From Deltaproteobacteria bacterium (GTDB taxonomy: Bacteria > Desulfobacterota > DSM-4660 > Desulfatiglandales > HGW-15): a DNA stretch of 48,459 bases. Positions 6,245-43,400 of the stretch are shown piece after piece (the stretch's first letter is position 1; every line of letters begins with the position of its first letter). Where the stretch lies: assembly GCA_016930835.1 (NCBI GenBank), contig JAFGGA010000201.1, positions 1-48,459 of the forward strand, read 5' to 3'. Position numbers and translations under genes: made by a program. The notes under the pieces were generated by a model. That model searched no databases. It saw only the letters and a list, made by a program, of their open reading frames with translations, and was not told where the DNA came from.

Positions 6245-6260
6245 GCAAAGGAAAAAAGTG

Positions 6261-6704: not shown

Positions 6705-6716
6705 GAAGTCAATATT

Positions 6717-9745: not shown

Positions 9746-9777
9746 CTCGTCATTCTGGCGAAGGCCGGAATAACGAG
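9746..9777. repeat. REP-like palindrome
   Basis: CTCGT and ATTCTGGC pair with GCCGGAAT and ACGAG around a GAAG loop. It is an extragenic palindrome between the glycosyltransferase and arsC genes, similar in style to those at 33061 and 43690. No T tract follows. Confidence 0.6.
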
Positions 9778-9823
9778 GGTGTGGACAATTATGAGATGAT
9801 CGAATATTCAATTTAAGAATTAT

Positions 9824-10273
9824 TTATCTTTCTATCAACTCTTTGAATGAAAAGGTCCCCGCCTCGGGATTCAGCAGCCAATTTTTAATCTCTTCTCGAA
9901 TTTCACGTACTTTTGATAATCTTTCTCCATGGGAACCTTCCACTTTGGCCGGATCAGGAAACGGCCAATGCCAGCGCTTGGTTATGCCTGGGAAAACCGG
10001 GCATTGCTCCTCAGTATCATAACAAACAGTAATGACATGCGAATAGATATTTCCCGCCTTGAACAGCTCAAAGACACTTTGAGGTTTTTTCCCAGAGAGA
10101 TCGAAACCCTCTTCCTTCATGACCTCTACCACCAGCGGATTGACCTCCTCGGCGGGCTTAAAGCCTGCGCTTTCAATCTCGAAATGTTCACCGGCGAACT
10201 CTTTCAAGTATGCCTCTGCAATCTGGCTGCGGCCACTGTTGTGTTGACAAATAAAAAGAATTCTAGGCTTCAT
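9824..10273 (-). CDS. arsC: Arsenate reductase, low-molecular-weight phosphatase type
   Basis: Reduces arsenate to arsenite using the LMW protein-tyrosine-phosphatase fold, in the thioredoxin-linked branch. The N-terminal P-loop CQHNSGRSQ (CX5R, Cys about residue 9) is intact; the resolving region TVCYDTEEQCPVFPG supplies two further Cys, and HWPFPDPA is the family's aspartate loop. The open frame begins at 10294, but ATG 10273 has AGGAG six bases upstream and gives the family's normal start. No arsR or arsenite pump is adjacent. Arsenate enters through phosphate transport, which may explain its place near phosphorus genes. Confidence 0.9.
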   Translation of the reverse strand: MKPRILFICQHNSGRSQIAEAYLKEFAGEHFEIESAGFKPAEEVNPLVVEVMKEEGFDLSGKKPQSVFELFKAGNIYSHVITVCYDTEEQCPVFPGITKRWHWPFPDPAKVEGSHGERLSKVREIREEIKNWLLNPEAGTFSFKELIER

Positions 10274-10406
10274 CTCATACTCCTTTTTATACATGTATCA
10301 CAATTTGCAAGGCTCTTCCAAAATACAATGGTTTTCATAAATCCATGTATATGGAGATTTTTATATGCCGAGGCGGTTTGGCTTTTCGATTTTATCCATT
10401 AAGTTA

Positions 10407-11318: not shown

Positions 11319-11328
11319 CTTTTTTCAA

Positions 11329-22792: not shown

Positions 22793-23248
22793 ATGACTAT
22801 GAGCAATTCCGATACTCAATCGAATGTCGAACGAACACTGCGCAACTTGCTGCCGATCATGAACAAAGAAGATATAAAGCAAATGTTGGCATTGCTCTCC
22901 GAATTCCCGGTCAAGGTGGTTAAAACCCCTGAGTCTGGTTTAATTATGGTCCACGCCCGCGATTGTTTTGACGTGGGTTTTTTCCTCGGTGAAATTTTGG
23001 TCACAACAGCCGAAGTGGATTACTTTGGTATTCAGGGGCACGCCACCATTATGGGTGATGACCCCCTAAAGGCTGTACTGGCCGCAACGCTAAACGCCCT
23101 GACGCGTAGTGCCCAAACAGATGCACTAAATGAATTGAGTCCGCTGATTGAATTTTATACTCAAAAATACGAACACCTTCAACAACAAGAAGATCAATTG
23201 ACTGCGGCAACAAAAGTGAGTTTTGAGTCAATGGTAAAAGAGGCATAA
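22793..23248 (+). CDS. phnG: C-P lyase core subunit PhnG
   Basis: 151 residues, part of the PhnGHIJ complex. With PhnI, PhnG and PhnH support displacement of adenine from ATP by phosphonate, giving alpha-D-ribose 1-methylphosphonate 5-triphosphate. Recognisable parts are PVKVVKTPESGLIMVHARD, FDVGFFLGEILVTTAEV and GHATIMGDDPLKAVLAA. AGGAAAAG precedes the ATG; the phnH ATG follows the stop with no gap. Confidence 0.92.
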   Translation: MTMSNSDTQSNVERTLRNLLPIMNKEDIKQMLALLSEFPVKVVKTPESGLIMVHARDCFDVGFFLGEILVTTAEVDYFGIQGHATIMGDDPLKAVLAATLNALTRSAQTDALNELSPLIEFYTQKYEHLQQQEDQLTAATKVSFESMVKEA

Positions 23249-23851
23249 ATGCATTCTTCAGTCTATCCGACACAAAAAATATTCCGGGTGCTTGTTGAAG
23301 CCACGAGCCATCCGGGACGAGGTTATCGGCTTCCCACTTGTCGAGAATCCGATCCGTGGAGAACATCACTCCTGGCGGTCGCCTATACCCTTCTCGACCA
23401 TGAAGTGGCATTTGCTTTCATAGGCAAAAACATCATGTTGGCACAGCAGGTTTATGCCGCAACCAAAGCCCGGCAAGTTGCGGTGGAAGACGCTCATTAT
23501 GTGATTGTTGAAGGAAACCAAAGTTTGGGGCAATTGAACAATGTCAATTGCGGGACAAGCGCGTACCCGGACCAAGGAGCGACCATTATATATGCGCTAT
23601 CAAATGATGGTCGGGAACAACAATCTCCACTCACCAACGTTTTCTTGAGCGGTCCAGGGATAAAAGAGCCTCTCAACCCTCAATTAACCGGGTTGAGCAT
23701 CGAGGAACTCAATAACATTCACCATCTGAATGGTGAATATCCACTTGGTATTGATTGCATTTTTTTAAACGGCGATTGCCAAGTCATGTGCATTCCACGT
23801 TCAACTGAAATTAAAATTCATCAGGATAAAAAATGGGATATGTTGCCGTAA
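23249..23851 (+). CDS. phnH: C-P lyase core subunit PhnH
   Basis: 200 residues. PhnH has a PLP-transferase-like fold without PLP and bridges PhnG/PhnI in the complex. Characteristic parts are FRVLVEATSHPGRGYRLP near the start, SLLAVAYTLLDHEVAF, VNCGTSAYPDQGATIIY and FLSGPGIKEP. It begins one base after the phnG stop and overlaps phnI by 19 bases, as expected for subunits made in fixed ratio. Confidence 0.92.
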   Translation: MHSSVYPTQKIFRVLVEATSHPGRGYRLPTCRESDPWRTSLLAVAYTLLDHEVAFAFIGKNIMLAQQVYAATKARQVAVEDAHYVIVEGNQSLGQLNNVNCGTSAYPDQGATIIYALSNDGREQQSPLTNVFLSGPGIKEPLNPQLTGLSIEELNNIHHLNGEYPLGIDCIFLNGDCQVMCIPRSTEIKIHQDKKWDMLP

Positions 23852-24915
23852 AAGGCGGACAAGAAGCCATAGAAAACGCCTTTCGATTTTTTCGCTACAA
23901 TCAAATCCGACAGGGTTCCGAACCCATCCAAGTAGAGCAAATCCGTGATCAGCTCCACTTGTTGATTGACCGCATTATGAGCGAAGGGTCGCTGTATGCC
24001 CCGGATCTGGCGGCATTGGCCGTGAAACAGGCCGCCGGCGATACCTTGGAGGCCTCTTTTATACTGCGGGCGTATCGCACTACCTTACCCCGTTTAGGTT
24101 ATTCATTGCCTTTGGACACGGCTCGAATGCGCGTCATTCGAAGGATTTCAGCCGCCTTTCAAGATATCCCCGGAGGGCAGATATTGGGGCCCACACCGGA
24201 CTATACCTTGCGATTACTCAATTTTGACCTGATCAACGAAGATTCCCAGACCTATCAAGAACATATTGCAGACCTTTTTCAAGATCTGCCTGAATACGAT
24301 GAGCTTCCACAAACCTTCCCCAAAGTCATGGAGATCTTACGCCGTGACAATCTGCTAATCGGTCGCAACGCACAAGTCGTCGGTTCAACCAAGTCATTTG
24401 ATATTACAAGGGAATCCATTACGTTTCCTGCGCCTCGCAGTGCGGCCCTTCAGGCCATGGCCATGGGCGAAACCGGCGGTCTCCTGGCCTTGGCTTACTC
24501 CAATATGCGGGGATACGGCATGGTTCACCCAACCGTTGGAGAATTGCGTGTGGGATACTTGGAGGTAAATGTGAAGAATCCTTATACTCAACAACCGGAA
24601 AAAATAGGTGAAATTGAGGTTACGGAGGCGGAAATCATTTCTCAAGCCAAACATAAAGACGGCAATCGTCCTCAATTTACACTGGGTTATGGTCTTTGCT
24701 TCGGTCATAATGAGACCAAGGCCATCTCTATGGCTGTTTTGGACCGGGCCATGCAATCCGAAGAACCGCAGTCACCCTCCGAAGATCAGGAGTTTGTGTT
24801 GTTACATATAGACGGCATTGAATCCATGGGCTTTTGTAACCATTATAAACTCCCCCATTATGTGACATTTCAATCTCAATTGGATCGTCTTCGCAAGGCG
24901 CAGGAAAAAGCATGA
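23833..24915 (+). CDS. phnI: C-P lyase core subunit PhnI
   Basis: 360 residues, the nucleosidase-like subunit that with PhnG/H/L attaches methylphosphonate to ribose at the expense of adenine. MGYVAVKGGQEAIENA is the standard start; later RQGSEP, TLPRLGYSLPLDTARMRVIRRISAAFQDIPGGQ-type region, FPAPRSAALQAMAMGETGG and NHYKLPHYVTFQSQLDR near the end. Its stop overlaps the phnJ ATG (ATGA). Confidence 0.93.
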   Translation: MGYVAVKGGQEAIENAFRFFRYNQIRQGSEPIQVEQIRDQLHLLIDRIMSEGSLYAPDLAALAVKQAAGDTLEASFILRAYRTTLPRLGYSLPLDTARMRVIRRISAAFQDIPGGQILGPTPDYTLRLLNFDLINEDSQTYQEHIADLFQDLPEYDELPQTFPKVMEILRRDNLLIGRNAQVVGSTKSFDITRESITFPAPRSAALQAMAMGETGGLLALAYSNMRGYGMVHPTVGELRVGYLEVNVKNPYTQQPEKIGEIEVTEAEIISQAKHKDGNRPQFTLGYGLCFGHNETKAISMAVLDRAMQSEEPQSPSEDQEFVLLHIDGIESMGFCNHYKLPHYVTFQSQLDRLRKAQEKA

Positions 24916-25778
24916 ATCTATCAACTTGGTTACAGCAGCAAGAAAAAAATGGTCATCAAGCATATTATACCTTTGCCTTTATTGATGAGGGCGCTAAAAG
25001 AGAGATCCGGCGTAAAACGCTTAAAGCAATTGCCATCCCCGGCTATCAGGTTCCGTTTGGTTCACGTGATATGCCTATTGCTCGTGGATGGGGAACCGGC
25101 GGATTACAGCTCACTTTGGCTTTAATCGGCCCGGAGGACATATTAAAGGTCATTGACCAAGGAGCGGATGACAGCGTTAATGCCGTCAATATCAAAAAAT
25201 TTGTGTCCCAGGTAACCGGGGTCAGGTTAACAAATCAGGTTCAGGAGGCCACCCTGATCCAAACACGACATCGAATCCCTGAGGAACCTTTGAGAGAGGG
25301 GCAGATCCTGGTCTTTCAGGTACCAATCCCAGAGCCGCTGCGTGCGGTGGAACCTTCCGAACGGGAAACCCGGCGGATGCATGGCGAAGCCGATTATAGT
25401 CGTATGTGGTTACATCTTTACGAAAACATTGTCCAATTTAAAGAGATCATGATCGGTTCACGGTATCCCGTTATGGTGCATAATCGGTTTATGATGGATC
25501 CCAGTCCTATACCCAGATGGGATAATCCCCGACTCCACATGGCTGAGGGGCTTTATCTTTTTGGGGCCGGGCGTGAAAAACGCATCTATGCCGTTCCCCC
25601 TTATACCTCTGTGAAGTCCATTGAGTTTGAGGATTATAAATTCCGGGTTGAAGATTTCGGTGGCGTGGCATGCTCTCGGTGTGGTCGTACGAATACGTTT
25701 CTGAATGAGATCATTGATGATGAAAGCGGAAAACGCACCTTTATATGTTCCGATACTGCATTTTGTTCAAAATTATAG
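24912..25778 (+). CDS. phnJ: C-P lyase radical SAM subunit PhnJ
   Basis: 288 residues. Cleaves the carbon-phosphorus bond of ribose-1-phosphonate 5-phosphate, releasing the alkane and a 1,2-cyclic phosphate. The 4Fe-4S cysteines are at the C-terminal end, in the unusual order of this enzyme: C254 and C257 (ACSRCG), C279 and C285 (ICSDTAFC), with the CX2CX21C spacing. The N-terminal body carries YTFAFIDEGAKREIRRKTLK and GWGTGGLQLTLAL. In most operons phnK follows directly, but here a MITE-like element lies between them. Confidence 0.95.
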   Translation: MNLSTWLQQQEKNGHQAYYTFAFIDEGAKREIRRKTLKAIAIPGYQVPFGSRDMPIARGWGTGGLQLTLALIGPEDILKVIDQGADDSVNAVNIKKFVSQVTGVRLTNQVQEATLIQTRHRIPEEPLREGQILVFQVPIPEPLRAVEPSERETRRMHGEADYSRMWLHLYENIVQFKEIMIGSRYPVMVHNRFMMDPSPIPRWDNPRLHMAEGLYLFGAGREKRIYAVPPYTSVKSIEFEDYKFRVEDFGGVACSRCGRTNTFLNEIIDDESGKRTFICSDTAFCSKL

Positions 25779-25954: not shown

Positions 25955-26824
25955 ATGGTTAAACCTGTGTTAAGGGCTGTAGGACTTACAAAACGCCACG
26001 GCAATGGATGTTCCCGATGTTACGAACTAACCGGGCCACTATTTGACCGTAACGTCTGTCCGGACTGCCATTCTGTGGTGGCCTGTCATAATATATCATT
26101 CGAGCTGTTTCCCCAGGAAGTATTGGGCATTGTGGGTGAAAGCGGTTCCGGAAAAAGCACCGTGATACAATTATTAAATTTCAATCTGGAAGCCGACGGC
26201 GGTGAACTTTACGCGGATATTCCCAATGGAAATCAAAGCAAACTGTTCGGACAAAATTTGGAGGGAAAGAATCTTTTTTCACTAAACTCTTTTCGCAAAA
26301 GGCAATTAAGGAACTTCATCATCGGAGTAGTCCATCAGCACCCCCACCTGGGTCTCCGCATGAATGTAAGCGCAGGGGGCAACATTGCCGAACGATTGTT
26401 GATGGCGGAATGGCGGCATGTTGGGCGAATGCGGGAACGAAGTGCTGAGTTGCTCAAGAAGACAGAGGTTCCCATTGATCGCATGGATGAACCGCCAAGG
26501 AATTTCTCAGGCGGTATGCAACAACGTGTACAGATCGCCAAGGCATTATCCAACGAACCCATGCTCTTATTGCTGGATGAGGTCACTTCCGGACTCGATG
26601 TGTCCGTTCAGGCGCGTGTGCTGGACCTGATCAGAAACCTTCAACACGACTTAAAGGTCACAACGATCGTCGTCTCTCATGATCTTGGGGTGATCCGTAT
26701 GCTGACCTCGCGTACCATGGTGATGAAAAACGGGCAGATTGTGGAATCGGGTCTGACTGATCAGATTTTAGAGGATCCTCAACACCCTTATACCCAGTTA
26801 CTGGTGACCTCGGCGCTTTCCTAA
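25955..26824 (+). CDS. phnK: PhnK ABC-type ATPase with zinc-ribbon insertion
   Basis: 289 residues, ABC ATPase that docks on the C-P lyase core and is required for phosphonate breakdown. Walker A is GESGSGKS (about 67), signature SGGMQQR (about 187), Walker B LLLLDEVTSGLD and switch His VSHDLG. Between strand one and Walker A it has an extra Cys4 motif, C19-C22 and C35-C38 (GCSRCYEL, NVCPDC), absent from E. coli PhnK and likely a small zinc ribbon. AAGGAG precedes the ATG. The following phnL-phnM gene starts 15 bases after the stop. Confidence 0.92.
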   Translation: MVKPVLRAVGLTKRHGNGCSRCYELTGPLFDRNVCPDCHSVVACHNISFELFPQEVLGIVGESGSGKSTVIQLLNFNLEADGGELYADIPNGNQSKLFGQNLEGKNLFSLNSFRKRQLRNFIIGVVHQHPHLGLRMNVSAGGNIAERLLMAEWRHVGRMRERSAELLKKTEVPIDRMDEPPRNFSGGMQQRVQIAKALSNEPMLLLLDEVTSGLDVSVQARVLDLIRNLQHDLKVTTIVVSHDLGVIRMLTSRTMVMKNGQIVESGLTDQILEDPQHPYTQLLVTSALS

Positions 26825-26839
26825 AGGAGGCTTATAATC

Positions 26840-28795
26840 ATGAGATCAAATGAGTTTTATGTATTTCAGCTTATGACCGACCAAACAAGTTTAAACATGC
26901 CGGCCAACCGGAACATGTTATCGGTAGAGCATCTCAATAAATCTTTTAAGATTCATCATCTTGGGGAAAAACGGATTTATGGATTTCAAGATGTTTCTTT
27001 CCAATTGGGAGAAGGAAAATCGCTTGCCCTATTCGGGCCCAGTGGCATCGGGAAAAGTTCCGTTTTAAAGTGCATATACCGTACTTACTTATCCACATCA
27101 GGCAAGATACGTTATTACTCAAGACAATATGGAGAAGTAGATCTGACAAAACTTTCTGAATATGACATGTTGCAACTACGAGCCAATGAAATTGGATATG
27201 TAACCCAGTTTCTTAAGGTTATCCCGCGTGTCAAGGCGGTGGATGTTGTGGCTGAGCCACTTGTTTTTAAAGGGGCACCAAAGGAAGAAGCGCGAAAAGA
27301 GGCGCGTGCATTGCTGAAAAGGCTGAATATCCCCAAAACCCATCTTGATGCCTATCCGGTTACATTCAGTGGTGGCGAGCAGCAAAGGATTAATATCGCA
27401 CGGGCCATCATCGGCAAGCCGCGACTATTATTGCTAGATGAGCCCACTGCCTCTCTGGATTCAGAATCGATAAACATCGTGATCGATCTATTAAAGGAAC
27501 TACGCGCGCATGGCACATCTATGGTTATGATTTTTCATGACCAAACCATCTTGAAAGCACTCGCCGACTCTTTATATCCCATGAAAAACCCTGAGCAAAG
27601 CATGATTTTCGTTCCTAAAAAAAACATCGACCGCCCCTCAAATCAAGATTGGATCATCCGAAATGCCCGTGTAATTCAACGGAACGGCCTTAAGGAAAGA
27701 ACGGACATCCTGCTTCAAGGTGGACGAATCATTAAAGTCGGTTCGAATGTACATGCTTACAATGTCGCCCCTATTGATGGCGACGGATTTCTGGTCATGC
27801 CTGGTTTTATAGACCTGCATAGCGATGCGGTCGAAAAAGAAATTCAACCGCGCCCCGGAGGGAAAATCCCCGTTGAAATCGCCCTGGTCGAACTGGATAA
27901 ACGACTGGCCGCATGTGGTATCACGACGATGTACCATTGTCTGGCATTCGTTACAAGCATTAAAAACGAACTGCGCACGGGTCCATTTTCGAAAAATATT
28001 GCCGACACCATTCATCAAATGCAGAACCAATTAAGGGTTCATAACCGAATTCATGCGCGTTTTGAAATACTTCACACTGCATATGTCACACTGCTCGAAG
28101 AGCTTATTCAAAATCAACGCATTCATCTCTTCTCACTCATGGACCATACCCCCGGGCAAGGGCAATTTACATCACTTGATGATTTCAAGACCTACTTCAG
28201 CTCCATACATAGGAGTTCTGACGAAGAAATAAATCAGATTATTCATGATCGAGTACTGGCCAGACAGCATTTTCATGATGACCATCTGCGACACTTGACT
28301 GCGCTATGCCGGGAACATGGAATTCCCATGGCCAGTCATGATGACGATAATCCGGACAAGGTCCGGTGGGCCCACAGTATGGGTGTGCAAATCAGCGAAT
28401 TCCCCGTGACGATAGAGGCCGCCGAAACCGCTAAATCTCTGGACATGCACGTGTTAATGGGAGCGCCCAATATTTTACGTGGAAAATCCCTTACCGGTAA
28501 TTTGAGCGGCCGAGAGGCTATTGAAGCCGGTTATTGCGATCTGATAGGGTCGGATCATTCTCCCTCGAATATGTTACATGCCGTATTCACGCTATATCGT
28601 TCAGGAATGGGTGAGCTGCATGAAATGGTCAATATGGTGACATATAATCCGGCCAAGGCCATCGGCATGGAGGAACGAATCGGCGCCATTGAACCAGGGT
28701 TGACCGCGGACCTTGTCATGGTTGATGATTCCGGGCCCGTCCCCCGGGTCATAGCCACTTTCGTCGATGGGAAACGAGTGTTTTCGGCTTATTAA
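26840..28795 (+). CDS. phnLM: PhnL-PhnM fusion protein
   Basis: 651 residues joining two usually separate proteins. Residues 1-265 are PhnL, an ABC ATPase: FGPSGIGKSS (Walker A, about 65), SGGEQQR signature, LLLLDEPTASLD and MIFHDQ. After a linker (about 250-268), residues 269-651 are a full-length PhnM amidohydrolase: MPGFIDLHSDAVEKEIQPRPGG, ACGITTMYHC, HTPGQGQF, MASHDDD and LIGSDHSP, closing with the C-terminal beta domain. PhnM releases pyrophosphate from the ribosyl triphosphonate. The fusion reads as one frame with no start signal between. AAGGAGG precedes the ATG. In PhnM2 and canonical PhnM the catalytic Asp motif is SDY; here it is SDH. Confidence 0.92.
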   Translation: MRSNEFYVFQLMTDQTSLNMPANRNMLSVEHLNKSFKIHHLGEKRIYGFQDVSFQLGEGKSLALFGPSGIGKSSVLKCIYRTYLSTSGKIRYYSRQYGEVDLTKLSEYDMLQLRANEIGYVTQFLKVIPRVKAVDVVAEPLVFKGAPKEEARKEARALLKRLNIPKTHLDAYPVTFSGGEQQRINIARAIIGKPRLLLLDEPTASLDSESINIVIDLLKELRAHGTSMVMIFHDQTILKALADSLYPMKNPEQSMIFVPKKNIDRPSNQDWIIRNARVIQRNGLKERTDILLQGGRIIKVGSNVHAYNVAPIDGDGFLVMPGFIDLHSDAVEKEIQPRPGGKIPVEIALVELDKRLAACGITTMYHCLAFVTSIKNELRTGPFSKNIADTIHQMQNQLRVHNRIHARFEILHTAYVTLLEELIQNQRIHLFSLMDHTPGQGQFTSLDDFKTYFSSIHRSSDEEINQIIHDRVLARQHFHDDHLRHLTALCREHGIPMASHDDDNPDKVRWAHSMGVQISEFPVTIEAAETAKSLDMHVLMGAPNILRGKSLTGNLSGREAIEAGYCDLIGSDHSPSNMLHAVFTLYRSGMGELHEMVNMVTYNPAKAIGMEERIGAIEPGLTADLVMVDDSGPVPRVIATFVDGKRVFSAY

Positions 28796-28836: not shown

Positions 28837-29634
28837 ATGACACAACATCCCCTTGATAGACTTCAAGCCGTCGCCATTGAAGCAGCAAAAGCCGCGGGCG
28901 AACTGCAGTTGGGCTTCTATGACCGACCGCTCCATGTGGATGCGTTGCATGCGCATGACCTCAAACTGGAGATCGACCGGATATGTGAACACGCCATTCT
29001 GGACATCATCCAATCCGAATTTCCGGGACACACCATCCTCGCGGAAGAAGGGGGTACCATCGAAAACGGCTCCCAATATATCTGGATTATTGACCCATTG
29101 GACGGCACGGTAAACTTTTACAATAGGATCCCATTCTTCTGTTCTTGTATCGCATGTTATTATCGTGAACCTGGGCTGTCGTTTCCACAAATACCATTGC
29201 TCGGAGTCGTCTATGCCCCGGTCGTCGATGAGATCTTTGTCGGCATCGCCGGAGGGGGCGCGACATGCAATGGGAGATCCATTCAGGTCCCTTTCAACCC
29301 AAAATTGTCTGAAATGGTTATAGGTGTCAGTTTCGGCAGCACAGAGCCCGTAATGCAATATATGGAACGTATTATATCCCGGTTGATCAGAAGTTGCCAT
29401 AAGGTGCGCATATTGGGATCATGTGGATTGGACATCGCGAATGTAGCCTGCGGACGACTAGGCGCTTTGATACAACGAGGCGTGCGATTGTGGGATTTCG
29501 CGGCCTCACGGATTATCTTACAAGAGGCAGGCGGGACTTTCGAGGCCTTTGAGGTTGATGGTGGGCAATGGGATATTCTGGCGTGTCCTCCTGAAATGAT
29601 GAACGCATTGAAGAAAGTGACACATTCTGCATGA
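28837..29634 (+). CDS. Inositol monophosphatase-family phosphatase
   Basis: 265 residues with the complete lithium-sensitive phosphatase signature: LAEEGG (about 70), WIIDPLDGTVNF (about 85-95), GSCGLDIANVACGR and WDFAAS with LQEAGG (about 219-230). These are the metal-binding and catalytic residues of IMPase, CysQ and fructose-bisphosphatase relatives. It lies between phnM copies, 41 bases after phnL-phnM, and its stop overlaps the 2H phosphoesterase start. As phnN and phnP are absent, I infer it acts on a ribose phosphate produced by C-P lyase, for example removing phosphate from ribose bisphosphate. Substrate unproven. Confidence 0.88.
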   Translation: MTQHPLDRLQAVAIEAAKAAGELQLGFYDRPLHVDALHAHDLKLEIDRICEHAILDIIQSEFPGHTILAEEGGTIENGSQYIWIIDPLDGTVNFYNRIPFFCSCIACYYREPGLSFPQIPLLGVVYAPVVDEIFVGIAGGGATCNGRSIQVPFNPKLSEMVIGVSFGSTEPVMQYMERIISRLIRSCHKVRILGSCGLDIANVACGRLGALIQRGVRLWDFAASRIILQEAGGTFEAFEVDGGQWDILACPPEMMNALKKVTHSA

Positions 29635-30188
29635 ATATGACGCGCCTTATTATTATCACTGTGCCTCCAAAAGAGATCGCCGACCGCGTTCAACAATTGC
29701 GAACCCCCATCTGCGAAAAATACCAAGCCCCTTGGGCACTCACATACCCTCCCCACATCACGCTTAGAACCGGTGTGATTGTACCGCAAGACAACATGGA
29801 AAATTATTTATCCGATTTTACCAATCTGATTAAAGACCAAAAACCATTTAGGATTCGCACAGACAAGATAAAAAGCACGATTATGAGAAATGGCGACGAT
29901 TGGAAGTTTTTTATCTATTTGCCTGTTATTCAAGACCATGCATTAATACATCTCAATCGTCATCTTCTCTCATATTGTCGATATCGGAAAAGTAATCAGA
30001 TATCATTTTATCCGCACATGACGTTATTATGGGATTCCCTTACCGTCAAGGAACAGGAAGAGGTTAAAGCCACCATGAATAGGGATCGAAGATTTACGGA
30101 ATGTTATGAGTGGATGTGCGATAATGTCTCGCTTTACATCAGGAAGGAAGACCATTGGGTCCCCTTCCATGTATTTAGAATACAGTAA
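29631..30188 (+). CDS. 2H phosphoesterase superfamily protein
   Basis: 185 residues with the two HxT/S-type motifs of the 2H (LigT-like, cyclic phosphodiesterase) fold: PPHITLRTG (His about 43) and YPHMTLLWD (His about 129), in a sequence otherwise not close to RNA ligases. Members of this superfamily (DUF1045 group) recur in C-P lyase operons that lack the metallo-hydrolase PhnP; opening the 5-phosphoribosyl 1,2-cyclic phosphate left by PhnJ is the obvious proposal. ATG overlaps the IMPase stop (ATGA), so the two are translationally coupled. Confidence 0.85.
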   Translation: MNMTRLIIITVPPKEIADRVQQLRTPICEKYQAPWALTYPPHITLRTGVIVPQDNMENYLSDFTNLIKDQKPFRIRTDKIKSTIMRNGDDWKFFIYLPVIQDHALIHLNRHLLSYCRYRKSNQISFYPHMTLLWDSLTVKEQEEVKATMNRDRRFTECYEWMCDNVSLYIRKEDHWVPFHVFRIQ

Positions 30189-32184: not shown

Positions 32185-32997
32185 TTAAATATATACCTTA
32201 CGGATCCTGGCAGAAAGGAGGTCCAGGGTGCTGACGGTCACCACGATAATGATTAAAATAGCGGCCGTAGATCCATAATCAAAGCTTCGGATCTTGTCAA
32301 GGATGGTATAGCCGATACCACCGCCTCCCACCATGCCCACTACGGTAGCCGAGCGTACATTGGATTCGAAACGATAAAGAGAATAGGAGATCCACAAGGG
32401 CATGACCTGAGGAAGAATTCCGTAATTGATCTCTTCAACCACGGTGGCGCCGGTGGCACGGATCCCGTCGACCGGCCGAGGATCAATGGCCTCAACGGCC
32501 TCTGAAAAAAGCTTGGCAAGTGTTCCCATGGTATGGATGAAAAGGGCCATCACGCCGCAGAAAGGTCCTAAACCCAGGGCGGCGATAAAGAATAGCGCGA
32601 TGATCATTTCATTGGTGGCCCGGCAGATATCCATGAGTCGGCGAACCGGTTGATAGATCCATCTCGGGACCAGGTTTGCGGAAGACATCAATCCGAATGG
32701 AATAGCCCCGATAACCGCCAAAAGGGTTCCCCAAATGGCGATCTGAATCGTCACGAACATGTCCCGGATGTAGAGGCGCCACTCAACAAAATCAGGATGT
32801 CCGAGTCCCGCCGCAAAACTAATGAGATTATACCGATAGGTCCACAGGTCCAGGGGTTTCATTTCCGCACCCTCATACGCCCAAACAAGCAGCACAACGG
32901 CACCAACGGCGATTCCGAATCGAACGAAAAGATCTTTTAAAGGCATCTTGGGTACTCTTTGTCCTAAACTTACCAAAGTCCCGGATTGTCCAATCAT
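32185..32997 (-). CDS. phnE: Phosphonate ABC transporter permease (operon 1)
   Basis: 270 residues with about six membrane helices and the PhnE-type cytoplasmic loop near residues 167-195 ([31 protein letters not shown]) that contacts the ATPase. [14 protein letters not shown] follows near the end. ATG 32997, with AAAGGGG five bases upstream, is preferred over 33018. It lies 195 bases behind phnD of the same operon; a hairpin with a T tract in the gap may reduce its expression relative to phnD. Confidence 0.9.
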
Positions 32998-33060
32998 GTT
33001 TACCCCTTTAAAAAACAAAAGAAACAGTCTAGCCTTTTGAAAATTATGAGATGCAAGGCT

Positions 33061-33089
33061 TGGATTCCACGACTTGATCGCGGAATCCA
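33061..33089. repeat. REP-like palindrome
   Basis: TGGATTCC at 33061-33068 is mirrored by GGAATCCA at 33082-33089 (perfect eight-base stem, 13-base loop). Same style as the palindromes at 9746 and 43690. Confidence 0.55.
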
Positions 33090-33126
33090 GTTAATCGAAA
33101 TTTTTTGAAAACAGTTAAGGTCTTGC

Positions 33127-33165
33127 AATAAAAAAATAGGATGCCGACCGAACCAAAGTCGGCAC
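33127..33165 (-). terminator. Hairpin with T tract between phnD and phnE (attenuator candidate)
   Basis: On the minus strand TGCCGAC (33165-33159) pairs with GTCGGCA (33148-33142), followed a few bases later by a run of seven T. It would cut part of the transcription after phnD, giving more binding protein than permease. Confidence 0.5.
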
Positions 33166-33192
33166 CATGTATAATAGTCGAGTCCAAGACAA

Positions 33193-34215
33193 TTAAAATT
33201 TTTGGACGAGGACGTAATAATTATTAAGTTCTTCCAGTTGAGTATTGATCTTTTGCAGGCGTTCTTGTTTGTCGGCCAAACTGATATCCTTGTTGTTTTC
33301 AATTTTCATTTTGTCTTTTACAAGATCAATTTGCCGAATCGGAATCAATTGACGGTTATCCGAATTTTTGAACGGTCCCCAACCGGAGCTTACCCTGGAA
33401 AGTATCTTTCTTTCATTTTCCGCATCCGGACCTAAACGGCCATATGCCAGGAAAAGGGCCTTAAGCCTGGTCTTGATCTCATCCGGCAGATCCTTTCGCC
33501 AGCACAGTGGGTCTTTGGGGATCAATGGACTTTGCCAAACAACCTTAATATTTTGGGCGAGCTGAGGATGGTTTTTCTGGAACTGGGTCTGGGATTCGGT
33601 GTTGTTCGTGGCAAAATCCACCTGTTTCTGGGCAACGGCCATATTATTGGCCTCATGGTTTGCATTGCGCACTATCTTGAAATGTTTGTTCGGGTCAATC
33701 CCCCTCTTGGCCCAAATATAATAAGTTGGGACTAAAAAACCCGAAGTGCTATTTGGATCCCCATTGCCGAATCGAAGTTCACTTCCGTGCTCGATAATTT
33801 CCTCAATGCTGTTGTAAGGACTATCCTTGTGGACGATAATCAAAGACCAGTAGCCTGGTGAACCGACTATGTCCGTTGTTTGGGCAAAAACCTCGGCATT
33901 GGCCCGTTCGGTGGCCTCGATGGCCGATTTATTCCCAAACCAGGCAAAATCCACTTTTTGAAATCGCATTCCCTCGATGATCCCGGCGTAGTCGGTCGCA
34001 TAACGTGGAACAATCTTCATTCCCATTTTTTTACTGAGGTCATCAATAAAGGGTTCAAAACCCTTTTTGAGTGTATCTAGAGAATCCGTAGGAATGATCC
34101 CAAAGACTAGCTCTTTATAGTCCTCGGCTGTCCTGGTATCCTCTGCAATTGAAACTGTAACACACAAAAAGAACATAAGAACCATACCACACAAAATTTT
34201 TAAGTTATTCTTCAT
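33193..34215 (-). CDS. phnD: Phosphonate-binding periplasmic protein (operon 1)
   Basis: 340 residues. Signal peptide at residues 1-25 (NNLKILCGMVLMFFLCVTVSIAED). Type 2 periplasmic-binding fold with PhnD features: ELVFGIIPTDSLDTLKKGFEP near the mature start, RYATDYAGIIEGMRFQKVDFAWFGN, FGNGDPNSTSGFLVPTYY and VWQSPLIPKDP. ATG 34215 is five bases after AGGAGG; the frame's earlier ATG at 34233 overlaps that site. Second gene of the minus-strand transporter. Only moderately like the phnD of the divergent operon, so the two may differ in ligand. Confidence 0.92.
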   Translation of the reverse strand: MKNNLKILCGMVLMFFLCVTVSIAEDTRTAEDYKELVFGIIPTDSLDTLKKGFEPFIDDLSKKMGMKIVPRYATDYAGIIEGMRFQKVDFAWFGNKSAIEATERANAEVFAQTTDIVGSPGYWSLIIVHKDSPYNSIEEIIEHGSELRFGNGDPNSTSGFLVPTYYIWAKRGIDPNKHFKIVRNANHEANNMAVAQKQVDFATNNTESQTQFQKNHPQLAQNIKVVWQSPLIPKDPLCWRKDLPDEIKTRLKALFLAYGRLGPDAENERKILSRVSSGWGPFKNSDNRQLIPIRQIDLVKDKMKIENNKDISLADKQERLQKINTQLEELNNYYVLVQKF

Positions 34216-34253
34216 TTTTTCCTCCTTAATCAATTTAAATAAATTATGAATAC

Positions 34254-35270
34254 CTATACCTCACCTAACCTGGTTTCTCTCCAAAAGGCGCTGCTCGATC
34301 TCTGAAGCGACCTTTCATCCTTCTCTTTTTTTGCCTTAACCCGGGCTTCATGCCGTCCCGCGATCAATGACATAATATCCACACCCTCCTCAATGTCACC
34401 GAATTCCGTGCCGTAGATTTCGCGAAGAAGGGGCATGGATAATTCTTCGGTTGGACCGTCGAAAACCACCTTCCCCTTTTTGAGCCCGATGGATCGTTCA
34501 CAATATTTCATGGCATAATCCACTTGATGAAGACTGACTATAATAGTGACACCGTCCTCTTTATTAATCTTACGCAGCGTTTCCATCACATGCGTCGAAG
34601 AAGCAGGGTCCAATGATGCAATGGGTTCATCGGCCAGGATGATTTTGGCGCCCTGCACCAAGGCCCGGGCAATAGCACCACGCTGCTGCTGGCCGCCTGA
34701 CAGGGTACTTGCCCGTTGGGTCGCATAATCCGCCATGCTAACCCGTGCGAGGGCCTCCATTGCGTGCTTCCTTTCAGGATATGTAAACCAACGAATCATG
34801 CTTCGATACACAGGCACATTGGCCAGCATCCCCGTCAGGACATTTGTGAGCAATGGTAACCGCCCCACCAGATTAAACTGCTGAAAAATAAAGCCAATGT
34901 CCGCACGGATTTTACGGATGTTACAATTGGATTCACCATTCAATTGGACTGTTCGCCCCAATACCTTAATACTGCTGGGTTGCTTATCACAGGACACAAG
35001 ATCGATAAGATTTTGAAGAAGGGTCGATTTGCCAGATCCCGATGCGCCAATGAGCGCCACCATTTCACCTTGATCGATCTGTAGCGACACATCATGCAGC
35101 GCTTGATTTTTACCAAATGTTTTACTCACATGACGAACATCAACCGCTGGATTCATGGTGCCTTTTCCATCTTCTAAATCCAAATGAAAATCTCGACATT
35201 CCAATTCTTGTGGTAAATGATTTGAAGAGGCTGTTTTAATGGTCTGTACAGATTTTATTAATCGTGCCAT
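34254..35270 (-). CDS. phnC: Phosphonate ABC transporter ATPase (operon 1)
   Basis: 338 residues. Walker A GASGSGKST (about 77), FQQFNLVGRLPLLTNVLTG typical of PhnC, signature LSGGQQQR (about 190), Walker B ILADEPIASLDP, switch SLHQVD. It carries an N-terminal extension of about 38 residues and a charged C-terminal tail of about 35 residues compared with the divergent copy. AAGGAG lies 11 bases before ATG 35270; an internal ATG at 35156 (MNPAVDV) is an alternative that removes the extension. PHO box at 35380-35408. Confidence 0.92.
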   Translation of the reverse strand: MARLIKSVQTIKTASSNHLPQELECRDFHLDLEDGKGTMNPAVDVRHVSKTFGKNQALHDVSLQIDQGEMVALIGASGSGKSTLLQNLIDLVSCDKQPSSIKVLGRTVQLNGESNCNIRKIRADIGFIFQQFNLVGRLPLLTNVLTGMLANVPVYRSMIRWFTYPERKHAMEALARVSMADYATQRASTLSGGQQQRGAIARALVQGAKIILADEPIASLDPASSTHVMETLRKINKEDGVTIIVSLHQVDYAMKYCERSIGLKKGKVVFDGPTEELSMPLLREIYGTEFGDIEEGVDIMSLIAGRHEARVKAKKEKDERSLQRSSSAFWRETRLGEV

Positions 35271-35379
35271 GGTCTGATTTTCTCCTTTCTGGCTGATACA
35301 TTATGACCGTGATTCGGATTGTATTTTTTTTTAAATTTTTTCAGTTTGTATGTCATCTTGAGACAATCAAATTCAAAAA

Positions 35380-35408
35380 GGATTAGCAGTTTGTTAAGAT
35401 TCTATTAA
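35380..35408 (-). promoter_or_regulatory. Putative PHO box of transporter operon 1
   Basis: Minus strand: TTAATAG (35408-35402), TTAACAA (35397-35391) and CTAATCC (35386-35380), four bases apart. It precedes phnC of the minus-strand transporter and is back to back with the box at 35471. Confidence 0.6.
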
Positions 35409-35470
35409 AACCCACCACTAAATAAATCACCTTATGAGTTCAGAAGACCTCTAACCCCAATCAGAATGAT

Positions 35471-35499
35471 TTAATCAAATTTTAACTTGGCAATAACAT
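35471..35499 (+). promoter_or_regulatory. Putative PHO box of transporter operon 2
   Basis: TTAATCA (35471), TTAACTT (35482) and ATAACAT (35493), four bases apart, then TAATCT at 35505-35510 as -10 element. No -35 hexamer is apparent, as in PhoB-activated promoters. Confidence 0.62.
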
Positions 35500-35572
35500 T
35501 CGCATAATCTTATTTTTAGAATTATGTCTTCCGCATTCATCAATGTAATGATCATAAAAAGGAGGTGACTCA

Positions 35573-36397
35573 ATGTTACGACTAGATAATATTGTTAAAA
35601 ATTTTGGAGGGACAAGAGCCGTCAACAATGTCAGCATTTCAATTCCCAATGGCCAGATGGTCGGGATTATTGGTCGATCCGGAGCGGGCAAATCTACCCT
35701 TTTGCGCCTTATCAATCGTTTACTGGATCCGTGTGAAGGGCAGATTGAATTCGAGAATTCAAAGATCACTGCATTGAAAGGTCGTTCTCTTTTACAATGG
35801 CGCGCTCGTTGTGCCATGATTTTTCAACAATTCAATCTTGTGGGCCGGTTAAATGTGCTGACAAATGTACTGCTCGGCCGACTGGCATATCATAGAACCC
35901 TACCTACCTTGATTAAGCACTTTTCAAAAACCGAAAAAGCAATGGCCATTCACGCCCTAGAACGTCTGGATATGGCTTCAACAGCCTTCCAACGGGCCGA
36001 CACCTTGTCTGGAGGGCAACAACAAAGAGTAGCTATTGGCAGGGCATTGATGCAGGATCCCAAGATGATTTTGGCGGACGAGCCCATTGCGTCATTGGAT
36101 CCACATAATGCCCGCAAGGTAATGGAGGCATTGCGCTGCCTAAACCAGGAGAATGGGATAACCGTATTATGCAACCTACATCATCTTGAATCAGCCCGAA
36201 TGTACTGTGATCGCGTAATAGGAATGTTCAAAGGCTCTATTGCCTTTGATGGAACTCCGGCGGATTTAACCCCCGCGAAGGTATGCGATATTTACGGAAG
36301 CGATGAGCATGATGAAGAATTGGAAGAGGCTTTCGGTTCAACATTTAACCTGGACGTCAGCAGCCTTGATCGAGAAAAATCATTTGCAGCAGCATAA
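35573..36397 (+). CDS. phnC: Phosphonate ABC transporter ATPase (operon 2)
   Basis: 274 residues. Walker A GRSGAGKST (about 40), FQQFNLVGRLNVLTNVLLGRL, signature LSGGQQQR (about 146), Walker B ILADEPIASLDP and NLHHLE switch. Length and sequence are the standard PhnC form. AGGAGG precedes the ATG by seven bases. First gene of a complete phnCDEE transporter that diverges from operon 1 across a 302-base regulatory region. Confidence 0.94.
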   Translation: MLRLDNIVKNFGGTRAVNNVSISIPNGQMVGIIGRSGAGKSTLLRLINRLLDPCEGQIEFENSKITALKGRSLLQWRARCAMIFQQFNLVGRLNVLTNVLLGRLAYHRTLPTLIKHFSKTEKAMAIHALERLDMASTAFQRADTLSGGQQQRVAIGRALMQDPKMILADEPIASLDPHNARKVMEALRCLNQENGITVLCNLHHLESARMYCDRVIGMFKGSIAFDGTPADLTPAKVCDIYGSDEHDEELEEAFGSTFNLDVSSLDREKSFAAA

Positions 36398-36507
36398 TTC
36401 ATAAATAATTAACGGAAATCCAATGCTCATTGAACATCCCAACAAGCATATGGTGGGTCCATCATTTTTATATAATTTAAAATTTAAGAGAAAAGGAGTG
36501 AATGACC

Positions 36508-37428
36508 ATGAGGAATAATTTGAAAATTTTAACGGCATTGTTGGTATTAACGGGGTGTCTTTTCAACGGAGACTTGTTTGCGGCTAGCAGCAAAAAATGG
36601 CAAGACCAATATCCTGAAATTACATTAGGTGTAATCACCAGCGAAAATGAAGCGGATCGCATACAGCGCTATAAACCGGTTCGGGACTATCTGGAAAAGG
36701 TATTGAGGGTGAAGGTGAATTGGCGTTCGGCTACCGACTATGCCGGGATTATCGAAGGCATGAAGGCCAAAAAGATTGAACTGGCCTATTATGGGCCGGC
36801 TTCATATTCACGGGCATGGCTGGTGACAAACGGCCAAGTGGAGCCTATTCTCGGTGAACTGGATCTGGCCGGCGATTTCGGGTATCATTCTGTGGTGGTC
36901 GTCAGATCCGACAGCCCTTATTATTCCATCGACGACCTCAAGGGGAAAAAATTTGCATTTGCAGATCCCAATTCTACTTCAGGGCATCAGGCGCCACGTT
37001 ACTTCCTCACCGAAGCCGGTTATGATCCGGATAAATTTTTCGGAAGTACCGCTTTTTCCGGCAGTCATGAAAACAGTGTGATAGCGTTATTAAATGGAAC
37101 ATTCGATGCCGCTGCCACATGGTGGCGAGCGGAAGAGCGGTCCAATCCCCAGCGCATGGAAGAAAAAGGTATGATCAAACCCGGCCAGTGGCGCGTGATC
37201 TGGAAATCCCCTAAATTGCCTTCCAGTCCATGGGCTGTACCCAAGTGGTTGCCGGAACAGATGAGAAAAGATCTGGCTGATGCGCTTTATAATATGAAAG
37301 AGGCCGATTCGGAAGCCTGGCGAGGATTAACTGATGGCAAGGCCAGCGGCTATAAGAGGGTCACCCACGCCGATTATGAGGCCATAGTTCGGATGATAAA
37401 AGCGAATATGGAGAGTCGTCGCAATTAA
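36508..37428 (+). CDS. phnD: Phosphonate-binding protein (operon 2), possible lipoprotein
   Basis: 306 residues. The N-terminus NLKILTALLVLTGCLFNGDLFA can be read as a lipobox (LTGC, Cys about 18) or as a type I signal peptide cleaved after FAA. Mature part: ITLGVITSENEADRIQRYKPVRDYL, WRSATDYAGIIEGMKAKKIELAYYGP, FADPNSTSGHQAPRYFL and VIWKSPKLPSSPWAV, all PhnD hallmarks. ATG 36508 is nine bases after AAGGAG; the ATG at 36502 is too close. It binds phosphonates and delivers them to PhnE. Confidence 0.93.
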   Translation: MRNNLKILTALLVLTGCLFNGDLFAASSKKWQDQYPEITLGVITSENEADRIQRYKPVRDYLEKVLRVKVNWRSATDYAGIIEGMKAKKIELAYYGPASYSRAWLVTNGQVEPILGELDLAGDFGYHSVVVVRSDSPYYSIDDLKGKKFAFADPNSTSGHQAPRYFLTEAGYDPDKFFGSTAFSGSHENSVIALLNGTFDAAATWWRAEERSNPQRMEEKGMIKPGQWRVIWKSPKLPSSPWAVPKWLPEQMRKDLADALYNMKEADSEAWRGLTDGKASGYKRVTHADYEAIVRMIKANMESRRN

Positions 37429-37510
37429 CAACGTTTCAACACGGAAGCCCCTTTTAGTCCATTTCATTTTTTGGGGCTTCTGTGGTATAAAACAGTGAAA
37501 AGCTGTCATC

Positions 37511-38395
37511 ATGAAAAATTTGACATCGACTCATATGTCTGAAGCATTTGTTCATTTTATCCAAGCTGAGCAGGCCTTACGCAGCAGCCGCCGACTTCAA
37601 ACGACACTCTTTACGATGCTCTTTTTTGGAGCGCTCATAGGCGCTGTTATTGTTGGCGAGGTACGCATAGATACCTTTATTGAAGGGCTTCCGAGCTTTT
37701 TTAATTATATCAGTGCCACATTACCGGAAATCCACAGCTCGACATTTCTTACTGACATTAAAGAATGGTATTGGGGGCTTGGTCGCTGGCTTTGGATGCT
37801 ATTGGATACGATTACTATTGCCTTCCTCGCGACAATAATCGGATCCATCAGCGCCTTTATACTTTGTTTTCCTGCTTCACATAATCTGATGCGCAATCCT
37901 TTCATCTATCACATTGCCCGACGAAGTATGGAAATTTTCAGAGCTGTTCCAGAGATCGTCTACGCTTTGATTTTTGTGTTCTCATTTGGCCTTGGGCCGT
38001 TTCCGGGTGTTCTGGCTATTGCCATTCATAGCACAGGATCGTTAGGAAAACTTTTTTCAGAGGTCAATGAAAATATCGATCATCAACCTCTGGAGGGTAT
38101 CCGAGCCAGCGGTGGAAACTGGTTTCAGGTGATTCGCTATGGTGTAATACCGCAGGTCCTTCCCAATATTTTAAGTTATACCCTCCTACGCTTTGAAATC
38201 AATATCCGGGCCGCTTCGGTCGTCGGATTTGTGGGTGCCGGTGGTATCGGTCAAGAGCTGATGTTTGTTATCCGTCAATTCATCTATGTGGATATTAGTG
38301 CTATTGTCTTATTGATTATGATCATGGTCACAATCATCGATATGACATGCGAAAAATTAAGGCATTATGCAATCGGAAAGGAAGCACTATTTTGA
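37511..38395 (+). CDS. phnE1: Phosphonate ABC transporter permease 1 (operon 2)
   Basis: 294 residues, six predicted membrane helices, with the EAA-like loop SEVNENIDHQPLEGIRASGGNWF (about 182-204) and VGAGGIGQELMFVIRQ near the end. An amphipathic N-terminal region of about 30 residues precedes the first helix. It overlaps phnE2 by four bases (TTGA), so the two permeases are made together and probably form a heterodimer. Confidence 0.92.
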   Translation: MKNLTSTHMSEAFVHFIQAEQALRSSRRLQTTLFTMLFFGALIGAVIVGEVRIDTFIEGLPSFFNYISATLPEIHSSTFLTDIKEWYWGLGRWLWMLLDTITIAFLATIIGSISAFILCFPASHNLMRNPFIYHIARRSMEIFRAVPEIVYALIFVFSFGLGPFPGVLAIAIHSTGSLGKLFSEVNENIDHQPLEGIRASGGNWFQVIRYGVIPQVLPNILSYTLLRFEINIRAASVVGFVGAGGIGQELMFVIRQFIYVDISAIVLLIMIMVTIIDMTCEKLRHYAIGKEALF

Positions 38396-39249
38396 AAGAT
38401 GAAAATGCAAATATAAGATCATATGATATAAAGAAACTCGATGAGCTTTATCCCGGCTTATTTCGCCTTCCATTCGATCAACAGATCAAAAGGCTGATTA
38501 TCGGCAGCCTTTTTCTTGGGACTCTCACATTTTGCCTCTGGCGGACCGGCTTTTTGAATATCAAAAATATTATCGATGGATTTGGTAAATTATACTTTGT
38601 ACTACAATTCATGCTTCCCCCTGCCCATAATGGATGGCTGGGTGAGTTCTTATATGCCATTTTGCAAACCTTAGGCATGGCCTTTATCGGAACCTTGGCT
38701 GCTTCTTTGGCCGCCATTCCTTTAGGTTTTTTAGGGGCAAAAAATATCTTACCCAATTGGATTTTTCATTTTGGGTTACGCAGGTTCTTTGATGGATTAC
38801 GCGGCATTGACGCTTTGATATGGGCCTTGATCTTTATTAATATGGTAGGACTGGGACCTTTTGCAGGTATTTTTGCCATCGCCGTAACCGATACCGGAAC
38901 ACTGGCCAAACTATTTGCCGAAGCTATTGAAAACATTGATCGCAAGCAAATGGAAGGGGTACGCGCTTCAGGTGCCCGTTATATCCAGATCATTCGATAC
39001 GGGATATTACCTCAAATACTTCCGGTCATATTGAGTAACGCACTTTACTTCTTTGAATCCAACACCCGTTCAGCAACGATACTCGGCGTGGTCGGTGCCG
39101 GCGGAATCGGTCTTCTGCTCTCAGACCGAATCAGGGTTAACAACTGGGATGAGGCTTGCTTTATCATTATCCTTATATTGATAACGGTATCACTGATTGA
39201 CATGGTATCCAAAAATATTCGTCATCGTTTTATTAGATCAGAGGGCTGA
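38392..39249 (+). CDS. phnE2: Phosphonate ABC transporter permease 2 (operon 2)
   Basis: 285 residues. Six membrane helices; EAA-like loop AEAIENIDRKQMEGVRASGARYIQ; VGAGGIGLLLSDRIR near the end. The open frame extends back to 38347, but TTG 38392 follows AAGGAA by eight bases and overlaps the phnE1 stop (TTGA), the usual coupling arrangement, so I chose it. Immediately followed by the phnM relic at 39253. Confidence 0.9.
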   Translation: MKDENANIRSYDIKKLDELYPGLFRLPFDQQIKRLIIGSLFLGTLTFCLWRTGFLNIKNIIDGFGKLYFVLQFMLPPAHNGWLGEFLYAILQTLGMAFIGTLAASLAAIPLGFLGAKNILPNWIFHFGLRRFFDGLRGIDALIWALIFINMVGLGPFAGIFAIAVTDTGTLAKLFAEAIENIDRKQMEGVRASGARYIQIIRYGILPQILPVILSNALYFFESNTRSATILGVVGAGGIGLLLSDRIRVNNWDEACFIIILILITVSLIDMVSKNIRHRFIRSEG

Positions 39250-40443: not shown

Positions 40444-43400
40444 TCAGAAAGAGGTCAGTATGGATTGAAAGCTGGCCCAAAGAACCTTCAGTTCCAATCC
40501 AAAAGGAACTCCTGGCTGTTTTTCCTCTACTTCGCCAACAGTAAATTGGATCTCCGGAGCCCGTTCAGAAGTTTGCCCGTTCGCAGAAACCTTTTCAATG
40601 GTAGCAACATATCGCTTTCCCAAAACAAAGGGTTGGCCATTACCGTTACACGACATCATGAGGCTATTCCCCACAGCGGGGTACGTGGTATGATAGCAAC
40701 CCGTTTGGGAGCCACAGTATATACGATAGTGGCCTTCCGGGTCCTGGTCATTGTCCCAGCTAAATTGTATGGATCCCTGTCTATAAGCCGCAACCAACCC
40801 CTGTGGGGGTTTCATGGGCAATTTGATTGGATGATCTTCATGTGACCGAGCCTCTGAAATGATCATGGGGGGATGGGCAAAATCAGTCAAATCCAATCTG
40901 ATAGACTCGGGCATTTGTTGGCCCTTGAAAAAGGCAAGTAGCAGACTGAATTCCTGTTCGACGCCGTTATAGGTCGGCCCGGCCCCGGCAAATTGCTCAC
41001 CGGCCAAGAGCGTTATATCAAAACCGTTTCCATTACCTTGAGTAGGGGGTTTATATTGTCGCCCATGATAGGTGCCGAAAGGATTAATACTCATATTAAA
41101 AGTGTTACTCGATTTATCATGGCGCATCTTCATCGGTGAAAAGGCAAAATTACATTGGACACTGGTGTCCATTGCAATTGCCATTCCGCTATCACCGACC
41201 ACAAGACCAACATAGGATTCCGTAATGTGGTTGTTGATATTATCCAGATCCAAATTCCAATCACCATATTGAAAATAATCGAGAGTGTATTCGGTTGATA
41301 CTCCCAAGTAATTATGCTTAAGCACGCGCACCGGTTCTTTTTTTGATGTGGATGGAAAAAATCGGATTTCAGCGGGTGCCGCTTCCTGCCACCCCATATC
41401 AGCACGCCTTATCAATCCCGGGGTCGCCGCTTTAAGAATATCATCTGCCTGAGTGGTGGGATACTTGATTTTTCCTTGAATCATCACATAGGGTAACCCT
41501 GGCATTAAAGAAAATCGATAATCCATCCAACCTTCTGATAAAGTTCGACCGATAGGGCCGGGAAATGGGCCTGCCAACCGAATATGAACGGGTTGGCCTT
41601 CAGCGGTAGGATGCTCCGGTTGAACAGCGCCTCTAGCTTGAAATGCCCGATCATTCCATTTGAAGTATGGCAACAGGCTGCCTGCATTGGTCTGGCGGAC
41701 ACCATCCAGATAAATGCCTTCTATTTCACCCTGACCCAAATGGATGGCTATTCTGCCGTTGGATATGACCGAACGGCCTCCATCAAGAAATCCATGGAAA
41801 GCCCTGGGGTACACCTCCTGCTCTGGAACCGAAAAGAGATCGTAAACACCATCCGTTATCAATTCATCTCCGGGAATGTATAACATGAGCATCGGTGGGG
41901 ATGACTTCTCCTCTTGAATCCCCAGATCCAGAAAGGGTATCATGCTTCCGTCACTTCGAGTGAGTAATAGACGCATCCCCTCTTGGTATCCCTCGGGTGG
42001 CACGATTTTAAGAAAGCGATGGCCATGAAGGTATTTTTCTGTATATGTTTGCATCACCATCATGGTGGTCAAATGGTTCAGCCCATTATTAACATCCGAA
42101 GGAGGAAAACGATCTTTCAAATACGCATGCACTCCATCGGCGACCAGTTGCTCGATCCTATCCGAATAACCATCCAAGTCAGACATGAGATTAGCGATCA
42201 CGCCTTCCCGCTGACGTGCCAAAAAAGGCGTAGCCATACCGAAATGGGTGGTGGACAAGGCCCGTAATCTCGTCATATCCGCAAAATTCATCACATTGGT
42301 CAGTTGTTCAAGGTGTATAAAATCATTGAGCAGATTCATCGCTTTGAGCGCTGCCACATGAGTGCGACGGCTCCGTTCAATTGTTGTCCAATAGCGGGAG
42401 GCCTCTGCTTTTTCTGCCCAGGAGTTATAGCCATTAAAACTGCCGTCGGCCGTATCCTGGCTGAAATAGAAAGGGCTGCCCACCGGTGGATGATCTGCCA
42501 AATAATCACCCAAACGGGTAAACTGAGCATAAGGAATATCTTGGATCTCACGGATCAGAGCACCGACACCGCCCGTATTGGGAAGCCATTCCATGATCCA
42601 GGGCAGATCGATACCTGCCCATAACTCCGAATCCGCATCATAATTGATAAAAATCAACGCGTCCTGATTCAGCCTCCCGTTGTCCTGCATATCTCGCAAT
42701 TCAGTGACCCAATGTCTGAGACTGACATGCTCCACCAGATCACCAAAGTGATAGGTAGGGATAACGATCATCTGTTCCTTGGTCTTAGGGTGGCTGTAAA
42801 GAATGGGATTGTGGGCCTCCGCCAGGCTCAATGGACGGCTGAAAACCCTGAAGGCATCAAAAGGGGTTGCACTGTAATAAAGCGTCACAGCCTGGATACC
42901 ATGTTTCTTGTATATGGAAAAATTCCCTGGTGTGGTCATCATCTCCTGAGGTCTTACAATGGGTGTATATCTCCCGAACAGATCCTGAACCCCACTTTGC
43001 CATGGATTGGTGATGGACCACTGTACGGCGTCATCAAGCTCATCCTCAGTCATGGCCGATACCAGTCCGTTATTATAGGACATGAGGATGACTTCATCAC
43101 CATGTTCGTGAATGCGTCGTCGGATGTCCTCAATGATATCCGGTGCGTACCTGGGTAAGACCTCTTGGAGGGAAAAAAGATTGTCAAAATCCCAAACCCC
43201 TTTGACGGGAATACCATCGGCATTGTAACGATCCAATGTTCGAATGATATGACGAATAACCCGGATATCTTTGCCGATACCGCTGTCATCATTGGTGTCA
43301 TTTCGAAAGGAATGGTAGAGGTTAACGTGAAAGCCGAATGCAATAAAGATCTTGTGCCCGGACTCAGCATTATTGTGGCCATTTCCAGCAAAAGCCAGGA

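Follow-up and report, generated by a model that had tools for sequence, protein, structure and literature searches.

Can PhnL and PhnM be made as one protein, and what would a cell gain by joining them? The question is raised by a 48,459-nucleotide stretch of DNA from a Deltaproteobacteria bacterium (hereafter the window), in which positions 26840-28795 of the + strand form a single uninterrupted frame of 651 amino acids, without an internal stop in the ORF listing or its translation. PhnM converts RPnTP (ribose-triphosphate phosphonate) to PRPn and PPi. We consider it likely that the window carries a real fusion that arose through a frame change of 1-2 nt and is made as one polypeptide, in which PhnM is tethered to the C–P lyase complex via PhnL, and that a free second PhnM (PhnM2) accompanies it.

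One frame for PhnL and PhnM

The ATG of the fused gene is preceded, at a spacing of 9 nt, by a strong Shine–Dalgarno sequence (AAAGGAGG), and a 25-amino-acid N-terminal extension lies ahead of the PhnL domain. The NCBIfam PhnL model TIGR02324 matches amino acids 26-244 over model positions 1-218 of 224 with 249-252 bits, just under its cut-off of 256.3 bits, and beats other ABC models on this half by more than 100 bits. The best sequence match in the Protein Data Bank is E. coli PhnL (7z15_K, residues 1-222, E 7e-48). TIGR02318, the PhnM model, matches amino acids 272-648 over its entire length (1-376 of 376) with 404.6 bits, above the curated cut-off of 390.55 bits; general amidohydrolases were the only matches to this half in the same structure database, and a recognizable PhnM structure was not found there. 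Pfam likewise finds ABC_tran followed by an amidohydrolase. These results bear out the preliminary description, which had proposed a complete PhnL and a complete PhnM in one continuous frame, joined by about 20 residues: both families are recovered in one chain by NCBIfam and Pfam, with full-length matches, and the linker measures 22 residues (amino acids 249-270). A frameshift at the junction, which that description had also considered, is not visible, and to either side of the junction the codon-position base composition resembles that of coding DNA. AlphaFold, run on the fusion with an alignment of three window proteins, returned a mean pLDDT of 33.8, too low for the model to be usable.

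Both halves keep the residues expected of their families. All 41 conserved PhnL columns are retained, and the Walker A (GPSGIGKS), signature (FSGGEQQR), Walker B (LLLLDEP) and H-loop (FHD) motifs are intact. The fused protein is identical to E. coli PhnL at E. coli residues 41, 46-48, 151-152, 174-175 and 207, which include the catalytic Glu of Walker B. A Tyr aligns with the position of E. coli Arg82, a residue described as fully conserved (PMC9947105), and this column is variable among the relatives as well. The PhnM half retains 40 of 41 conserved columns. Its H327, D329, H405, E409, H436, H500 and D572, which recur in every or almost every one of 77 relatives, probably form the metal site, judging by the amidohydrolase superfamily.

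Table 1 Features of the fused gene and the surrounding operon
Feature	Coordinates	Strand	Evidence
phnG	22793..23248	+	PF06754 75.9 bits, TIGR03293 77 bits
phnH	23249..23851	+	TIGR03292 134.8 bits
phnI	23833..24915	+	<=64% identity to PhnI-position genes elsewhere; PhnI annotated at the equivalent place in loci L050 and L051
phnJ	24912..25778	+	<=72% identity to PhnJ in other phn loci
phnK	25955..26824	+	TIGR02323 245 bits
Fused phnL-phnM, 651 aa	26840..28795	+	One open frame; PhnL and PhnM models
PhnL domain, aa 26-248	26915..27583	+	TIGR02324, E. coli PhnL match, intact ATPase motifs
Linker, aa 249-270, 22 residues, KNPEQSMIFVPKKNIDRPSNQD	27584..27649	+	Junction comparison
PhnM domain, aa 271-651	27650..28792	+	TIGR02318, conserved columns
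IMPase-family (inositol monophosphatase) phosphatase	28837..29634	+	PF00459 163 bits
2H phosphoesterase, RcsF-like, overlaps IMPase gene	29631..30188	+	PF13563 52 bits, LigT_PEase 37 bits
PhnM2, unfused, 388 aa	30224..31390	+	TIGR02318 373 bits

Operon and neighbourhood

The operon runs hexapeptide transferase (TIGR03308), phnG, phnH, phnI, phnJ, phnK, phnL-phnM, IMPase, 2H phosphoesterase, phnM2 and a FecR-domain gene. With phnGHIJK directly 5′ of the fused gene, the PhnL half lies beside phnK in a C–P lyase operon, and a genome search found no other PhnL, so the fused copy is the sole one. PhnK bears a Cys pair motif (CSRC...CPDC) at its N-terminus (25955-26100) that could form a zinc site and is not known from E. 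coli PhnK.

About nine related phn clusters likewise keep an IMPase gene directly 3′ of phnM, including those of the clade nearest to the window's PhnM proteins. Its product perhaps dephosphorylates the ribose product, replacing PhnN. Elsewhere in the genome, the top PhnN match is a weak one, at 47 bits for a cut-off of 156 bits. Many phn clusters have an RcsF-type 2H phosphoesterase in place of PhnP (PMC3840354, PMC10574752), and by analogy the 2H phosphoesterase of the window is probably such a substitute; none was detected in the related phn clusters.

Downstream of the operon, 32185-39249 holds two divergent sets of the phosphonate transporter genes phnC, phnD and phnE, and 40444-43524 encodes a 1,026-amino-acid protein without a Pfam match. 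Positions 3126-13551 also have a phosphorus theme, with genes for alkaline phosphatase (3126-4673), Ppx/GppA (10407-11318) and polyphosphate kinase (11329-13551).

An unfused PhnM paralogue within the operon

PhnM2 is encoded 1.4 kb downstream of the fused gene. It is 53% identical to the fused PhnM, and the two are sisters in the PhnM tree with support of 100/99; on this evidence they are the products of an old duplication. Each has diverged at different conserved sites. The fused PhnM has His573 after the (G/C)SD motif where PhnM2 and 77 of 77 relatives have Tyr, a residue that is invariant among the relatives compared and is not a published criterion of the PhnM family. PhnM2 differs at two nearly invariant positions close to the probable metal-site motifs, where it has Asp in place of Glu (76 of 77) and Asn in place of Asp (74 of 77). 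Going by these substitutions, the two proteins may have taken on separate roles; alternatively, one of them may be drifting.

Because PhnM2 is present in the same operon, PhnM activity need not be tethered, and the fused PhnM could be the drifting copy. The frames would then have merged in reality, with the merger tolerated owing to free PhnM2 and bringing no functional gain, and the fused PhnM would be dispensable or slowly decaying; this account shares its structure with the one we prefer and differs from it on function. We regard it as possible but doubtful. His573 fits it, as does the fact that the fusion is known from one genome, but the fused PhnM outscores PhnM2 under TIGR02318 (406 against 373 bits) and retains all of the probable metal-site residues, whereas the two changes at nearly invariant positions are in PhnM2. 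Old as the duplication is, the fused copy shows no decay. At the opposite end, a selected, functional division of labour, between a PhnL-tethered PhnM at the complex and a free paralogue that has diverged at different near-invariant residues, would be a tentative reading at best, and one that we rate as rather unlikely.

Rarity of the fusion

We searched ~810 distinct genomes of the phylum with TIGR02318, taking E <=1e-60 as the threshold for a PhnM locus; these comprised relatives, the class, a sample of the phylum and, for four other carriers of PhnM in the phylum, the surrounding classes or orders. None of the 69 other PhnM loci encodes a fused PhnL-PhnM, and their open frames span 322-548 amino acids, against 656 amino acids for the open frame of the window. 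Junctions were measured at 65 of the 69 loci and in 13 plasmid records. In ~60 loci phnL lies immediately 5′ of phnM, and in every one the stop of PhnL itself intervenes, usually <=100 nt from the PhnM core and often in an ATGA overlap. By chance ~10% of unconstrained junctions would be expected to be open in frame; none is open among the ~60 compared, which include many related loci and are not 60 independent cases.

The plasmid records inspected (Pseudomonadota, Deinococcota, Bacillota, Actinomycetota and haloarchaea) have separate genes and no fusion. Matches in one piece to plasmids of Sinorhizobium and Mesobacillus, obtained with tblastn, proved to be separately annotated phnK-phnM neighbours, hence not fusions. 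A scan of genome contigs with the fused protein found no fusion-bearing relative, and the fusion was not found in the viral contigs scanned. Across the 69 other loci and the plasmid records inspected, the arrangement did not recur in a second genome. No publication on a PhnL-PhnM fusion was found in the literature covered, which did not include the main review of C–P lyase genetics. The alternative raised at the outset, that the fusion is common or already described, thus finds no support in these loci or this literature, and provisionally we take it to be undescribed, on searches that covered one phylum and plasmids, a minority of bacterial phyla.

Origin of the junction

In the PhnM tree, the fused PhnM and PhnM2 adjoin a clade whose clusters carry an IMPase gene right after phnM. 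The typical junction in this sister clade reads Y-x-M-P-x-K-E-x-x-x-TGA, with the ATG of phnM within the stop (ATGA), 20 nt past the YxM codon, and with ~11 PhnM residues ahead of the IIRN core. The junction of the window reads Y-P-M-K-N-P-E-Q-S and continues with ATG 27602, 18 nt past the YPM codon, and 16 residues to IIRN; the tails are alignable with those of the sister clade on both sides. From this alignment, ATG 27602 is probably the former phnM start. Judged by the same correspondence, the 22-residue linker is an ordinary PhnL tail followed by an ordinary PhnM N-terminal extension, and not a new element. If the ancestor had adjacent phnL and phnM genes with an ATGA overlap, as in the sister clade, a net change of -2 (or +1) nt in the last codons of phnL would have merged both frames. 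The locus would thus be an example of two genes with an ATGA overlap fusing after a minimal shift of frame.

An origin of 1-2 nt makes fusion easy by mutation, and equally easy by one sequencing error. Because one base would undo the fusion, we weighed the possibility that the true phnL and phnM are separate, with an ATGA overlap, and that a single-base mistake in the assembly lies within the final codons of phnL. The fused state is one base from the sister-clade arrangement: removing one base from 27584-27601 gives a 229-amino-acid PhnL (226 in E. coli) that ends in ATGA at 27602, and any non-triplet indel in this stretch restores both an end for PhnL (TGA 27592 or 27603) and the phnM start at 27602. 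No second fusion appears among the ~60 junctions, and the sequence comes from one draft assembly of 224 contigs with no close relative that has the operon, hence there is no independent copy of the fusion. However, among the window's 32 gene-like ORFs (37 kb) there is no split gene, so indel errors appear to be rare; zero in 37 kb places the 95% upper bound at ~8e-5 per base, or <0.4% for the critical stretch. Internal stops are present in 0 of 94 ABC-domain matches genome-wide, and the longest run within the critical stretch is A5. We therefore consider such an error improbable. An artefact by homopolymer indel in the nearby A8 run is disfavoured because there is no in-frame start between A8 and the PhnM core.

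It is very unlikely that, besides the fusion, free PhnL or free PhnM arises by slippage on A8 (27617-27624) or by initiation within the gene at ATG 27602: the run lies within the linker and shifted frames end soon after it, at 27672 and 27691, so that slippage could release free PhnL, and ATG 27602 is the probable former start, but the window has 9 A8 runs against 10.6 expected by chance, no Shine–Dalgarno sequence lies upstream of ATG 27602 and the stop codon required for coupled reinitiation has been lost.

Proposed role of the fusion

Under the preferred reading of a tethered PhnM, the cell would make a single chain of PhnL ATPase, ~22 probably flexible residues and PhnM. In E. coli, the core complex carries a PhnK dimer on which PhnL rests; both ATPases bind to the complex and both are required (PMC9947105). 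The PhnL half would be expected to dock on PhnK in the same way and bring PhnM with it, placing the tethered PhnM at the complex between the PhnI step, in which its substrate is made, and the PhnJ step, in which its product is used, while free PhnM2 from the same operon would supply untethered activity. By analogy with E. coli, the most likely role of the fusion is to keep PhnM on the C–P lyase complex; the benefit of tethering and the order of events are our inferences.

The preliminary description had gone further, suggesting that PhnL and PhnM act at consecutive steps and that their fusion channels the triphosphate intermediate. That intermediate is made by PhnI, and PhnL is the ABC ATPase of the C–P lyase complex (PMC9947105, PMC10574752); the fusion therefore links PhnM to the complex rather than joining two consecutive active sites. 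Since the intermediate does not come from PhnL, and since PhnM2 is free, strict channelling is not implied, and the second PhnM in the operon weakens the argument for it. What stands of the earlier interpretation is a rare, apparently undescribed in-frame fusion. Its parts are ordinary and its origin simple, its covalent arrangement is new and has one known occurrence, and its benefit is putative.

The fusion bears on why C–P lyase needs PhnL and on where PhnM works with respect to the complex; PhnM figures solely as a pathway step in PMC9947105. A naturally occurring covalent PhnL-PhnM chain would be a hint that PhnM acts at the complex, and it could be used directly for cryo-EM of a complex that bears PhnM.

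Comparison with known systems

The closest structural reference is E. coli PhnL in Phn(GHIJKL)2 (PDB 7z15/7z16), which the window protein resembles over residues 1-222 of 226 and in all ATPase motifs. The gene order phnK-phnL-phnM is common to E. coli phn and the window, but E. coli PhnL is free-standing, whereas the window PhnL carries PhnM in the same chain and has the 25-amino-acid N-terminal extension. As a member of the RPnTP diphosphatase family (TIGR02318, amidohydrolase superfamily), the fused PhnM is full-length, above the cut-off and keeps the probable metal residues; unlike the usual PhnM, it lacks a start of its own behind a stop, has His573 for Tyr and has a paralogue in its operon.

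Sister clusters of the order G-H-I-J-K-L-M-IMPase (L057-L059, L061-L065 and L068) match the window in gene order, including IMPase, and in alignable junction tails; they differ in keeping phnL and phnM separate, mostly with ATGA overlap, and in having no adjacent second phnM. The marine fosmid B3_TF_MPn_2 (PMC3840354) resembles the window in its pair of phnM-like genes and in having an RcsF-type 2H phosphoesterase in the place of phnP, whereas a PhnL-PhnM fusion is not described for it. A natural fusion of two phosphonate-catabolism proteins does have a precedent in the fungal PhoF, which joins PhnY and PhnZ (cited in PMC10574752), but PhoF belongs to an oxidative pathway and combines unrelated proteins that catalyse consecutive steps.
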